Below are positions 4,418 to 11,224 of a DNA stretch of 36,864 bases, piece by piece. The DNA is from Candidatus Bathycorpusculum soli. Its GTDB lineage: Archaea > Thermoproteota > Bathyarchaeia > Bathyarchaeales > Bathycorpusculaceae. The DNA lies in contig JAITMO010000041.1 of assembly GCA_031277345.1 (NCBI GenBank), positions 1 through 36,864 of the forward strand. Reading direction: 5' to 3'. Positions within the stretch are counted from its first letter, which is position 1, and each line of letters begins with the position of its first letter. The translations under genes and the position numbers were made by a program. Under the pieces are notes generated by a model. That model was given only the letters and a program-made list of their open reading frames with translations, ran no database searches and was not told the origin of the DNA.

Positions 4418-4984
4418 TTGAGGGTTCACAGTTTGAGCACTAACGTCTTAACAATTGAAGAACGAAAAGCAGAAGTTCTCATTCGACTAAGAAAATATAA
4501 ACAAATAGAAAAACAGCCTTACGAAGGCGCATACGCATACATAGTAGATATACCACAAGACAAAGAACGTGCCATCGTATGGTGTATTCTAGGCGAAGCC
4601 ACCGTCGGCATAGCCGCCATGAACACACTCTACAAAATCATGAAAGAAAAAGAACTTGAACGCGCCATCGTCATAACAGAAGGACGATACACACACGCAG
4701 TCAAACTAGGCGCAAAGAAAAAGAACGTAGAACTCTTACCAAAATCTTTTCCAGTATTCAACATATTCGAGCACGGACTAGTCCCATTTCACGAAATACT
4801 AAACGAAAAAGAAAAAACCCAACTACTCACACAATACAAAGTACAACCATACCAAATGCCACAAATAAAATCAGGCGATCCAGCAGTTAAAGTAATCGGT
4901 GCAAAACCAGGTGACGTACTCAAAATCACAAGAAAAAGCACAACCGCCGGCGAACACACAACATACAGATACGTAGTAGAATAA
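4418..4984 (+). CDS. rpoH: DNA-directed RNA polymerase subunit H (Rpb5-like) with N-terminal domain; TTG start at 4418 or 4433
   Basis: C-terminus [70 protein letters not shown] matches the RpoH/Rpb5 C-terminal domain; about 100 aa N-terminal extension. Confidence 0.92.
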
Positions 4985-5396: not shown

Positions 5397-8300
5397 TTAA
5401 GCCAAAGTTACAAGGCCATCTTTGAGAGATAGTTTTCGGTCGCGCACCAGTCGATTTAAGATATCGTTAAAGCATTCTTTAACCGCATCTACAGAATATC
5501 TTAAACCAAAAATTTTAGCCGTTTCAGTTAACAAAGATATATCACTTATACCTGAAGTATACTTAACAATAAGCATCAGGGCAGCCTCTACTTCTTCAGG
5601 AGGAATATACTCTAATTTACGTTTAGTCTCAGGGATACCCTTGACTGGTTTACGAATTTGCACCTCTTTCAAAGGAAGAGCCCATAAAAAGCCACCTTTA
5701 ATAGTAACTTTTTGCGCCTTAAGCAAAACATTAAGAGACTCCTGAACAGCATGAGTAATTTTTGGCGTTACAGCATGTAAGCCCCAACCATCTGCAAGAC
5801 GTTCAACCGCGTAATCAAAATGAATAGGCCCTTCCCGTTCCACCAAGGATCCAAGGAAACGAGTTTGAATATCTCTATTACTAGGATAATGAAACTCGTT
5901 ACTCTGCCTTGAAATGTAAGTATTTTTGTTGTTGAACGCTTTAAGATAGGGATTAAACGCTATCCGAAGAGGAAAAACCTTGTATGAGACCCCAATTTTT
6001 TCTAAGGACATAAACGAGACTTTATGCATCTCAGTCTCCACAACACCCGCCTCTTCCTCCTCGCCTAAATCAACAGATGGCTTAAGAGATTCTTCATCTA
6101 ACTGCACTTTTTGGGCTTGCTCAAGAGCCTCCTTTAATCGTTTAACTTCAGAATCACGACGTGCAACCCAAGAAGGTGCCCAAACACGATGAACACGCCA
6201 ACCTAAACCTCTAAGAACTTGCTCACGAAGACGATCACGATCACGCGCACTATTGCTTGAACAATAAGTTGGCCCATCACATTCAACACCTAAAAGATAA
6301 CAGCCAGGAGTAACAGGGTCAACAACACCTATATCAATTTTGTAGCCACTACAACCCACTTGAGGTATAACCTTATAACCCAACTTTTGAATCTCAAAAG
6401 CAATATCTTCATCAAGAGAAGACTCAAAAGTTCCAGACGAGTTAAGTGCAACACTAAAAAGCTCTGGCCCTTTCTCAGCGTACTCAAGATAATTCCGCAA
6501 AGTCTGAACACCTAAAGCTTTCACATCAGAGCTAATATCAGCAGACTTTATTGACGAAACAATAACCACCTTTTCACGCGCACGAGTTACAGCAACATTC
6601 AAACGACGCTCGCCACCAGGCTTATTTATAGGTCCAAAATTCATAGTCATCTGACCAGTATGATCATAACCATAACCAACACTAAAGAAAATAACATCAC
6701 GTTCATCACCTTGAACATTCTCAAGATTCTTAACAAAGAAGCCTTCAAGACGGTCTTCCTTAAAGAATTTGTCAAACTCTGGATTTTCTTGCAAACGTCG
6801 ATAAATAGCCTCCTCAATAGCCTCCATCTGAGGTACACTAAAAGTAACTATACCAAGAGTCTTCTTAGGATAATTAGTAAAATGCTCAAACACCAAAGTT
6901 GCAACTTCTTCAGCTTCAACTTGATTATCTCTATTACCACCTCTATCATAAAGACCATTTTGAACATAAACCATCTTTACACCCAAACTATCATGCTTAG
7001 CCTTAGCCGCTGGAAAAGTAATAAGATTACCATCATAGAACTGATTATTAGAGAAAGCAATCAAATCCTCATGCTTACTACGATAATGCCACCTTAACGT
7101 TTTCACAGGCAAACCAATACCTAAACACTCATCAAGTATGCTATCAAAAACTTCAAAGTCTTCATCATTTATTTGACTCCAATCAATATTATCAACGATA
7201 GACTTTTGGAAGAAACTCGTAGGAGGCAACTGTTTATTGTCACCTGCAACAACAAGAGTTTTACCACGATAAATGGAACAAATTGCATCCTCAGGCACAA
7301 TTTGAGAAGCCTCATCAAACAAGACAATGTCAAAATGAGACGCTTCAGGCGCAAGAAATTGACTCACGCTAATAGGACTCATAAGCATACAAGGCTTTAA
7401 TTTAACCAGCAACGTAGGAATTCTCTGCAATAAAGTGCGTATAGGCATTAAATTACGCTTCTTAGCAGCCTCTTTCATAAGAATAGATGTTTCAGAATCC
7501 CCTGCCTGAACCAAAATATTCTGAGGCTTTCGACTATTCGCAGATTCAATAACCATACTAGAAGCTAAACGAATCAACTTCTTATCAAGAGCCTTAAAGT
7601 CATCGATTAACTGCTCATGATTCTCGCGCCGAAAACGACCTAAACGAGAATCCTCTGTATAGAGATTATTTATCCACTCCTGATAAGCACCCCTACGAAA
7701 AGAATCAATCAATTGACTATCCGACGTTTTCTGCTCAACAAGTCGCTCAAAGAAACCACCTAACCCACGAAGCGCAAACCGGTTCCGAAGATCTTTAAAA
7801 TCAATCCAAATCTGCAACTCATCAACCCGCTCACGCAAAATCTTCAACCGCTCATAAACAACAGAGAGAGGCAAATCACGAAGAGCCTGATTCTGATACC
7901 TAAGCTCCTTCTCAAAGCGCGACTCAAAAATAGCAATAGACTGAAGAGCAGTCTCATAACACCTAATCAACTTTACATCTGAAGGCGTATTAGAAACACC
8001 GGTAGCAGCAAGAAGAGCAAAAGCATCAGGAACAACAACATCACCAAAAACTCCCTGCACTTTTTTAACCCACTCAAGCACATAAATAATCTCAGTCCAA
8101 TTCGTTTCAAGCTCACAGAAACGAGAGCCAAACTTTATTTGAAGCTGAGACTTCTCACCAGTTACAGCAGCCTCCTTTCTACGTACAGCCTCAACATTTA
8201 CAAGATCCTCAAGAAGATGTTTATAGGTTTTAGGCACAACCAAAGCAGTAGAAAGAGTCTCTTTTGTCAAAATACTCAAAGGCGCAAACTGCTTCTCAAC

Positions 8301-11033
8301 ATCAATCACCCACTCTTCAAGCCTATGCAAATCAATTTGATCCAACGCTACACTAGAAAAAGGCAAGCTTTCGGGAATCAACTCAGAAACCTCTGCAGCC
8401 TGTTGCTCCCACTTAACAATAGACTCCTCAAGTTCATAACCTAAATGCTTAATCATAGGAGAAGGCCCAGAGGCACTTGTAACCAATTTTACAAAAGTCT
8501 CAGAAGGAACATTAATGCCTGATGCCAGTTTAATTTCTTTAATTATGTTAAGTGCCTTCTCTACTCGGAGGAAATCCGTATCATACCCTTGATAGAAACG
8601 ACCCAATAAACCTTTAACAGTCTCAGCCTGAGCATCGATTTCGGCGCCAAGAGTTTTTACTTTACGAGCATCAATAAGGTCCTCCAAGATGGTTGAAGGA
8701 ACCTTACCATTTATACTAACACGAGCGAGTTGCTTTTGATCGTTACGGAAGTTTGAGCTAAACATTCGAGACAAGTTAGACTGATAACTTCCATTATAAC
8801 GAGCGACAAGCTCATCAAGATTTAGATTATAAAGACCAACAGTATAAGACTTGCTTAAACGTTCCTTTAGCAGGTTATGCTGTTGATAAAGTTCTTTTGC
8901 TTTTAATACAGTATTATATACCTGTTGGAAAACTATAGAATCAAACCATTGTGGCTCAGGCTTAACATCAGCAAAACAGAACAAAGCTAACTTGGAAAGA
9001 TACTTGACATTTTGTAAATTCAAACTATCAATAGATAAACCAAGAAGACCTGCAAGAGAATGCGCCTGCTCACGCCACTTCTTAATAGCCTGCTGAGTAC
9101 TTCGAATATACGTCAAAAGCTTTTCCTGCTTAACCAAAAAATCTGACTCTAACAGATTTATTCCTGGAAACAACTTTTCAAGAATAAGCAAATTCTTTTG
9201 CAATTCAACAGACCTATCAAAAGCAAGATTAAACACAGATCTATTATAACGCTCCAACAAACTAGACCTTGTAGTTTTAATCCATTGACACATCTCACTA
9301 TAGGTTTTTGCCTCAGCTATTAGAGCATCAACATTTCTATTAAGCAACCAAGATGCTTCAGGTTTAGGACTTGCATGTAACAGCGACCCTATATTAATTA
9401 ACCATTTTACTTTATCAAGACTTACAGGGGAGCTTAAGCCTAACTGACGAGAAAAGTTCATGCTCTCTGACTGTAAATCTTCAACAGTATGAGCAAGAAC
9501 CTCAATTGAAGTTAACACCTCAGAGCGAACTTCAAGATTATAAAGACTCGCACGATAACCCGCCCAGGGAAAATCAGGTTCATCAACCACTTGCCAAACT
9601 TTACTTAACTCAGAAGTTAAACCTTCAAGCTCACTTAACTTTTGAGGAGTTAGAGTACTAACATCAGTTAAACCAACAGCAACATACGGAACACGTTCAA
9701 GACCAGCAATTATACTCAAAGCATCATACGCACTCTTTTGCATATAAGGACGCTTTTCATGCAACGCCGTAACATAACCATTTAAACTATCGCGATAAGC
9801 TTTCATCGTCTCAAATTCATGTGCCGAAGGCAATTTACAAGGCACCAAAGTCTCATCAAGACTACGCTTAAGCTCAGCAACAACCTCCTGCTTGTTAGCC
9901 TTACTACTATGAAGCTCTAAACAAAAATGAGCCAACCCTACCTCGCTAAGACGCTTATAAACTACATCAAGAGCAGCCATTTTGTCACTTACAAAAAGCA
10001 CCGACTTACCATGGGCAATACATTCAGCAATTATATTTGCAATCGTCTGACTCTTACCAGTACCAGGCGGCCCCTGCATTACAAAACTTTGACCACGCAA
10101 AGCATACTCAATACTAACCCGTTGACTACTATCAGCATCCAAAGCCTGATACGTTGACTCAGGCAACTGAATCTTATCAACATCCTTCTCATCAGGAAGA
10201 CCATCAAGAACAAGCTTTTCATCCTTTATACCAACAATCGCCCGCACTATAGGATGCTGCGTGATAAGCTCCTCATTTGACTCAAAATCCTTGTAAATAA
10301 CCAACTTGTGAAAAGAAAACAAACCTACATTCACAACAGAGTCAACAGTCCAACCTAACTCTGCAACAACTTTTGCTACTGCATCAAAATAATTTACAAG
10401 CGTATCTACTTCCACATCTTCAGGAAACAAAGGCAAATCAATCTTAAACTCAGTCTTCAACTTTACCTGCAACGCAGGATTTACAACAGTTTCTTCTTCA
10501 ACAGGAGGCACAAAAATTTCAAACGGCTTACGCACCGTTTCCCGCGCCAACTCTAAAGGCACCAAAAGCAAAGGAGAGGACACATTCTCCTTAGTATCAC
10601 CATCAACCCAATTCAAACGACCAAACGCCATATAGAGAACCCTAACACCCCGTTCCTGATAATCAAGCAAAGAACGTTTCTGCAAACTCTTAAGAGTAGA
10701 CTCAAGCTCCACACGGTCCAAACCCTTACTAACAAGCTGGTTTGAACGAGGCTTTTTAGGCTCAACAACCGTAGACTTAGTCACAACCACTGAGTCATCA
10801 AACGATTCATCAATTTGACTTTCCTCTTCTACAGGAGGCACCCAAAATTCTAGACGTTTCTTGCGTATAACCAAATCCTTAAAAACTGTCGTCGCATCCG
10901 GTGTAGTTACCGACACATTTCCACGCTTAGACGCATGAAAATAAAGCAGATTATTTCTTCGAGTTAAATCAATTAAACGCGACTTCCAATCATCAACACG
11001 CCGCACAGATGTAGAAGAATTCACTTGAGCCAT
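5397..11033 (-). CDS. Large DUF4011-type SF1 helicase with C-terminal Vsr/DUF559-like (REase_MTES_1575-like) nuclease and DUF3320-like tail
   Basis: N-terminus WKSRLIDLTRRNNLLYF (DUF4011-like); Walker A MQGPPGTGKSQTIANIIAE; DEASQI Walker B; VVAGDNKQLPP; NVQGDERDVIFFSVGYG; RRLNVAVTRAREKVVIVSS; nuclease DEDIAFEIQKLGYKVIPQVGCSGYKIDIGVV..LLGVECDGPTY..RDRDRLREQVLRGLGWRVHRVWAPSW. Start placed at ATG 11033 (MAQVNSST). Confidence 0.88.
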   Translation of the reverse strand: MAQVNSSTSVRRVDDWKSRLIDLTRRNNLLYFHASKRGNVSVTTPDATTVFKDLVIRKKRLEFWVPPVEEESQIDESFDDSVVVTKSTVVEPKKPRSNQLVSKGLDRVELESTLKSLQKRSLLDYQERGVRVLYMAFGRLNWVDGDTKENVSSPLLLVPLELARETVRKPFEIFVPPVEEETVVNPALQVKLKTEFKIDLPLFPEDVEVDTLVNYFDAVAKVVAELGWTVDSVVNVGLFSFHKLVIYKDFESNEELITQHPIVRAIVGIKDEKLVLDGLPDEKDVDKIQLPESTYQALDADSSQRVSIEYALRGQSFVMQGPPGTGKSQTIANIIAECIAHGKSVLFVSDKMAALDVVYKRLSEVGLAHFCLELHSSKANKQEVVAELKRSLDETLVPCKLPSAHEFETMKAYRDSLNGYVTALHEKRPYMQKSAYDALSIIAGLERVPYVAVGLTDVSTLTPQKLSELEGLTSELSKVWQVVDEPDFPWAGYRASLYNLEVRSEVLTSIEVLAHTVEDLQSESMNFSRQLGLSSPVSLDKVKWLINIGSLLHASPKPEASWLLNRNVDALIAEAKTYSEMCQWIKTTRSSLLERYNRSVFNLAFDRSVELQKNLLILEKLFPGINLLESDFLVKQEKLLTYIRSTQQAIKKWREQAHSLAGLLGLSIDSLNLQNVKYLSKLALFCFADVKPEPQWFDSIVFQQVYNTVLKAKELYQQHNLLKERLSKSYTVGLYNLNLDELVARYNGSYQSNLSRMFSSNFRNDQKQLARVSINGKVPSTILEDLIDARKVKTLGAEIDAQAETVKGLLGRFYQGYDTDFLRVEKALNIIKEIKLASGINVPSETFVKLVTSASGPSPMIKHLGYELEESIVKWEQQAAEVSELIPESLPFSSVALDQIDLHRLEEWVIDVEKQFAPLSILTKETLSTALVVPKTYKHLLEDLVNVEAVRRKEAAVTGEKSQLQIKFGSRFCELETNWTEIIYVLEWVKKVQGVFGDVVVPDAFALLAATGVSNTPSDVKLIRCYETALQSIAIFESRFEKELRYQNQALRDLPLSVVYERLKILRERVDELQIWIDFKDLRNRFALRGLGGFFERLVEQKTSDSQLIDSFRRGAYQEWINNLYTEDSRLGRFRRENHEQLIDDFKALDKKLIRLASSMVIESANSRKPQNILVQAGDSETSILMKEAAKKRNLMPIRTLLQRIPTLLVKLKPCMLMSPISVSQFLAPEASHFDIVLFDEASQIVPEDAICSIYRGKTLVVAGDNKQLPPTSFFQKSIVDNIDWSQINDEDFEVFDSILDECLGIGLPVKTLRWHYRSKHEDLIAFSNNQFYDGNLITFPAAKAKHDSLGVKMVYVQNGLYDRGGNRDNQVEAEEVATLVFEHFTNYPKKTLGIVTFSVPQMEAIEEAIYRRLQENPEFDKFFKEDRLEGFFVKNLENVQGDERDVIFFSVGYGYDHTGQMTMNFGPINKPGGERRLNVAVTRAREKVVIVSSIKSADISSDVKALGVQTLRNYLEYAEKGPELFSVALNSSGTFESSLDEDIAFEIQKLGYKVIPQVGCSGYKIDIGVVDPVTPGCYLLGVECDGPTYCSSNSARDRDRLREQVLRGLGWRVHRVWAPSWVARRDSEVKRLKEALEQAQKVQLDEESLKPSVDLGEEEEAGVVETEMHKVSFMSLEKIGVSYKVFPLRIAFNPYLKAFNNKNTYISRQSNEFHYPSNRDIQTRFLGSLVEREGPIHFDYAVERLADGWGLHAVTPKITHAVQESLNVLLKAQKVTIKGGFLWALPLKEVQIRKPVKGIPETKRKLEYIPPEEVEAALMLIVKYTSGISDISLLTETAKIFGLRYSVDAVKECFNDILNRLVRDRKLSLKDGLVTLA

Positions 11034-11224
11034 AATACCACACTTAAACAAATATTTAGCTAAATTATTATACATTACTTCTCCAAACTGATTGACTAAA
11101 CAACAATAAAACAAAAAACAGCGCTAAACAAACACCAAAAACCAACAGCACTCAAGCTACAAAGACGCACAACCTAAAATCACCAGTAAAACCATGCTAA
11201 ATATGAAAAAAGAAAAGAAAGAGG

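Follow-up and report, generated by a model that had tools for sequence, protein, structure and literature searches.

A two-domain RpoH in Bathyarchaeia resembling eukaryotic RPB5, with a putative lower jaw at its N-terminus

Some Bathyarchaeia, relatives of Candidatus Bathycorpusculum among them, encode a long RpoH (Rpo5) with two domains, and we consider it probable that the protein is the genuine, and only, RpoH/Rpo5 of its RNA polymerase, with a putative lower jaw at its N-terminus. The gene lies on a 36,864-nucleotide stretch of DNA analysed in full (the window), where an earlier note had pointed to an open reading frame at positions 4,418–4,984 on the forward strand; the frame is real, and approximately 100–105 residues precede a C-terminal RpoH domain of about 75 aa. 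The eukaryotic counterpart, RPB5 (RPABC1), is shared by RNA polymerases I, II and III. Its N-terminal domain is stated to occur in eukarya only (PMC3906176), archaeal RpoH is stated to lack the N-terminal jaw domain (PMC6690254), and a keyword search of a 2026 survey of archaeal polymerase subunits, which includes Bathyarchaeota and treats Rpo6 and Rpo8, gave no mention of a two-domain Rpo5 (PMC13257274; our reading covers open-licence literature). An RPB5-like two-domain RpoH in Bathyarchaeia appears to be new; the open-licence literature that we found calls the jaw eukaryote-specific. Because Bathyarchaeia make a two-part RpoH built like the human version, the origin of the jaw is now open to study in living archaea; with such a protein as the sole RpoH of a large archaeal clade, it becomes testable whether the RPB5 jaw came down by inheritance or by transfer, or arose on two occasions from one nuclease fold, and sister lineages offer a natural comparison of jaw-bearing and jawless polymerases.

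The N-terminal domain (4,439–4,756, forward strand) has a PD-(D/E)XK or Mrr-type fold from which the catalytic residues are lost, as indicated by the Pfam Mrr_cat family, profile matches, RPB5 sequences in the PDB and the predicted structure. In a phmmer comparison, the earlier by-eye alignment with human RPB5 was recovered in an identical register. The description of this region as a eukaryote-like Rpb5 N-terminal domain holds for fold, domain order and register, but not for Pfam, whose RPB5_N model is blind to the domain and whose strongest match is Mrr_cat. Mrr_cat (PF04471) matches the window protein at 4.6e-6, above cut-off, and all of 26 diverse RpoH N-domains (best 1e-11); RNA_pol_Rpb5_N (PF03871) is not among the families matched by these 26 domains, and this model, which covers only the first ~89 residues of RPB5, finds nothing over cut-off in the genomes of 41 relatives. 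When a profile of the N-domain alone was compared with 177,635 PDB sequences, only RPB5 was significant (Drosophila 1.3e-5, Arabidopsis 5.7e-4, human 0.002), the first non-RPB5 protein appeared at 0.6, and the RPB5 register places the domain just before the C-domain. Similarly, an HMM of the eukaryotic RPB5 N-domain ranked two-domain RpoH first (1.1e-5) among 5,065 ORFs of the fetched loci. The yeast and Arabidopsis RPB5 sequences agree with their PDB chains, and the human sequence with chain 28jc_E over the compared stretch; a pattern search of viral contigs for giant-virus RPB5 homologues, sought for a broader eukaryotic profile, gave no match.

AlphaFold2 run without templates gives a confident model of the full-length protein (pLDDT 91.1, pTM 0.79) and of the N-domain alone (pLDDT 94, pTM 0.87), with the order alpha-beta-beta-beta-alpha-beta-alpha-beta. 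The earlier note had allowed that the N-terminal fold might prove unrelated to RPB5, but by Foldseek the N-domain model has the fold of the RPB5 jaw and of restriction endonucleases. With the full-length model, the top 34 PDB matches are all two-domain RPB5 or a viral homologue, the best being 8uhd_E (E 7e-16, TM 0.81 over 197 columns). Single-domain archaeal Rpo5 crystal and cryo-EM structures follow below RPB5 (TM to target 0.84–0.92 against the window model), and MspJI comes first among proteins outside the polymerase. The N-domain alone matches MspJI (4.5e-4) about as well as RPB5 (7.1e-4), followed by AF1548, so the fold by itself cannot separate a jaw from a nuclease. The protein thus resembles RPB5 in having two domains in the same order, a C-terminal assembly domain and an N-terminal restriction endonuclease-like jaw, with the reservation that AlphaFold2 was trained on RPB5 structures, so that the pose it predicts for the two domains may partly echo them. 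The two also share an in-register VGI...T..AK stretch. They differ in that the bathyarchaeal N-domain is ~30 residues shorter and its C-domain is archaeal in sequence.

The domain resembles both the Mrr-type catalytic domain and standalone 120-aa archaeal relatives in fold, profile, and RGY, TVGV and FS/YT..A motifs. Unlike Mrr, it is fused to RpoH and lacks the catalytic D and (Q/E)xK; alignment with archaeal Mrr proteins shows both columns lost in the window protein and in the main clade. By its sequence, the N-domain is a former Mrr-type restriction endonuclease domain, predicted to be catalytically dead, and would have no nuclease activity. Two sets of divergent N-domains, L076 and L087 (family f2, genera g26/g28) and L086 and L090 (family f72), are more Mrr-like in sequence; some, in f2/g26 and f72, appear from the alignment to retain the first catalytic aspartate, and the f72 domain has an additional weak NucS_C similarity. 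These four domains look like intermediates between nuclease and jaw. The window's own genome also encodes a standalone Mrr-like protein of ~120 aa (contig 67, L145:1333-1695) with no Pfam match, and relatives of it occur in related Bathyarchaeia genomes (L163, L165, L169 and L174). It carries the signature W(N/K)RTVGVN...KFS.HAKAYANR, has partly degenerate catalytic residues and resembles the RpoH N-domain, for which proteins of this kind are a candidate source.

What such a domain might do is suggested by yeast RPB5, which is attached to the largest subunit by its C-terminal domain and whose jaw contacts duplex DNA 15–20 nt ahead of the fork through T117-P118-S119, with the proline in the minor groove (PMC6690254). 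In the window protein, the loop GRYTHAVK (4,682–4,705, forward strand) aligns with, and is presumably equivalent to, the yeast loop around these residues (NITPSAM). It is conserved as G-(R/K)-Y-T-x-(A/S)-(A/V)-(K/R) across relatives, with K at the end in nearly all of them; the threonine is shared with RPB5, there is an extra basic residue, and H, Q or Y usually takes the place of the minor-groove proline. We propose that the C-terminal domain would hold RpoH on the large subunit, as it does throughout the archaea, and that the N-domain most likely forms a lower jaw at the DNA channel's downstream end, where its GRYTxxxK loop would touch the duplex ahead of the enzyme, a contact suggested by the loop alignment. 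The domain would then act as a catalytically dead jaw that holds DNA. Archaeal polymerases function without a jaw, which counts against this role. A crystal study of Sulfolobus RNA polymerase, in which the jaw is called eukaryote-specific, places the Sulfolobales subunit Rpo13 near Rpo5 where the jaw partly sits in eukaryotes (PMC2675907). Occupying that place, Rpo13 is a possible functional analogue of the jaw, although it is an unrelated helix-turn-helix subunit.

A survey of RpoH length across TACK and Asgard genomes had been proposed, and we carried it out within Thermoproteota with a profile search over 398 genomes, counting as full two-domain matches those that span nearly all 178 model positions. 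Such matches were found in 56 of the 398 genomes, 55 belonging to the window's order and one (G201) to another family of the class. About 330 Thermoproteota genomes outside Bathyarchaeia have no two-domain RpoH, their best match (5.5e-36) covering the C-domain only. Among the genomes sampled the two-domain form is thus found only in Bathyarchaeia and is no general TACK trait, and because of this restriction its bearing on the origin of RPB5, raised in the earlier note, is a possibility. Within Bathyarchaeia, the two-domain form runs through the whole of the window's order and into several further families; families f1–f8, f67, f13, f16, f70, f72, f73 and f76 have it, and f9, f10, f12, f14, f15, f68, f69 and f71 the single-domain form. 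The two-domain state requires two changes on a 30-genome RpoB tree, one for a clade of 16 genomes and a separate one for f72, which is sister to single-domain f71 (97/98). All bathyarchaeal RpoH N-domains, f72 included, nevertheless lie together on one side of a single branch (97/91, and only 60/42 in a stricter tree), so transfer may have brought the gene to f72, or the two-domain form may have been lost from f71.

The two forms also differ in gene order. At single-domain loci, rpoB lies directly 3' of rpoH in all 21 inspected by eye, and a strict RpoB motif finds it at 29 of 38, the misses being due to variants of the motif, to a contig that ends there (L077) and to a broken copy (L134), besides five loci outside the individual inspection (L018, L020, L022, L026 and L034). 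The RpoB motif finds rpoB at none of the 105 two-domain loci within the stretch of sequence examined, and no rpoH frame precedes rpoB within the covered stretch in the 18 two-domain genomes examined, of which G001, G142 and G406 have little upstream sequence covered. Genes that have gained the jaw have also left the rpoB operon, which provides a clean genomic marker: one-domain genes remain in the rpoB operon and two-domain genes lie outside it.

How the N-domain relates to the RPB5 jaw can be explained in two ways. We give an even chance to the two having been acquired separately, with Bathyarchaeia and the eukaryotic stem each fusing a domain of the PD-(D/E)XK superfamily to the RpoH N-terminus. 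The strongest profile partner of the RpoH N-domain is Mrr, with an hhalign probability of 97.8% and an E-value of 7e-13, one of a set of single comparisons between small profiles that depend on profile depth. The same genomes also encode close Mrr-like proteins that stand alone, the two-domain form is restricted in distribution and on the RpoB tree needs two changes even inside Bathyarchaeia, and the fold search with the domain alone does not favour RPB5 over MspJI. The PD-(D/E)XK fold perhaps suits DNA contact at the jaw site, and could have been taken up there more than once. Separate acquisition is less easily reconciled with the fact that RPB5-N scores higher against RpoH-N than against archaeal Mrr or the standalone relatives, or with the placement of all the bathyarchaeal N-domains on one side of a branch.

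The other explanation, a serious possibility that falls short of an even chance, is that the RPB5 jaw and the bathyarchaeal N-domain go back to a single event that joined an Mrr-like domain to RpoH; the fused gene would either have been present in the common archaeal-eukaryotic ancestor and lost from most archaea, or have moved between Bathyarchaeia and the eukaryotic stem by gene transfer. Consistent with this, domain order and register are identical, and an RPB5-N HMM scores a mean of 15.5 bits on RpoH-N, 2.9 on Mrr, and has no match to the standalone proteins. The corresponding hhalign probabilities with RPB5-N are 93–94% for RpoH-N, 38–80% for Mrr and 1–3% for the standalone proteins. N-domain trees, unrooted and with Mrr drawn from Thermoproteota only, separate RpoH-N and RPB5-N together from Mrr and from the standalone proteins, with support of 90/79 and 93/87. 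The trees lean towards a common origin, but support is below 95 and the alternatives, RPB5-N with Mrr (AU p 0.20) or with the standalone proteins (AU p 0.07), are not rejected; a tree of the C-domain (RPB5_C, 76 columns) gave no resolved grouping. None of the other Thermoproteota sampled has the domain, so common descent would call for numerous losses or for a transfer. More tentatively still, a single Mrr-like fusion behind both would make the eukaryotic jaw an archaeal invention, inherited or transferred, that survives in a living archaeal lineage.

Whichever way the N-domain arose, the C-terminal assembly domain (4,757–4,975, forward strand) identifies the protein as RpoH. It scores 102.8 bits both with PF01191 (cut-off 23.5) and with the NCBIfam RpoH equivalog PRK09570 (cut-off 83), and is 42–60% identical to canonical archaeal RpoH/Rpo5 such as those of Sulfolobus and Pyrococcus, which the protein also resembles in being the sole copy in the genome; it departs from them in its extra N-terminal jaw and in a gene that is not before rpoB. 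The gene's location away from rpoB, and the fact that some relatives have the two-domain gene in two or three copies, among them copies with altered C-domains, could be taken to mean that the long gene is a divergent paralog outside the polymerase, with a canonical short rpoH elsewhere. We regard this as very unlikely. A separate short rpoH next to rpoB, which the earlier note had named as evidence against its proposal, was looked for and is absent: PF01191 matches only once in the window's own genome (G000, 91% complete, with the window on contig 215), and rpoB, on contig C163, has no rpoH in front of it. Relatives assembled as single contigs likewise have only the two-domain gene, as in G073 (97% complete), with one PF01191 match, and the C-domain is above the equivalog cut-off. 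Within the limits of a 91% complete assembly the paralog explanation is refuted, and the two-domain RpoH is probably incorporated into RNA polymerase.

More than one two-domain RpoH gene, two or three, is present in G419 (three: L109, L110 and L111), G442, G474, G508, G501, G557, G569 and G035, and their C-domains have diverged; G001 has an additional, degenerate rpoH copy (L134). Alternative polymerase forms within one archaeon are possible in such genomes, for which plant Pol V, with its own RPB5 paralog, is a comparison.

The stop codon and frame of the gene are as originally proposed, and the start is not: position 4,418 is an upstream in-frame TTG, and the true start is a TTG at 4,433, giving a coding sequence of 4,433–4,984 with the stop included. 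This TTG is common to the relatives in a codon comparison, and is the first possible start in several of them. A Shine-Dalgarno-like GAGGG (4,420–4,424, forward strand) lies 8 nt 5' of it and overlaps the TTG at 4,418, and a GAGG/AGGT-type site is found just 5' of the aligned TTG in 51 of the 54 relatives scored. Because of the conserved TTG and the GAGG-type site 8 nt upstream, we take the protein to be 183 aa; it is 87–96% identical to RpoH of Candidatus Bathycorpusculum relatives. The non-ATG start and the archaeal rule of a single-domain RpoH might suggest that the extension is an artefact of read-through into upstream sequence or of an assembly fusion, but this can be set aside, since domain, start codon and Shine-Dalgarno site are kept in dozens of independently assembled genomes and the N-domain is modelled as a compact fold with high confidence.

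The neighbours of rpoH are, as noted earlier, an oligopeptidase (of the M3 type) and a DUF4011/AAA/REase helicase, with rpoB on another contig. The helicase gene (5,397–11,114, reverse strand) encodes a 1905-aa DUF4011 superfamily 1 helicase with an MTES_1575 REase domain, a type often met in defence loci. Near the left end of the window, positions 132–938 hold two short frames, the second of which shows weak C-terminal similarity to phage integrase (E 0.0085, short of the curated cut-off) and is possibly a decayed recombinase.
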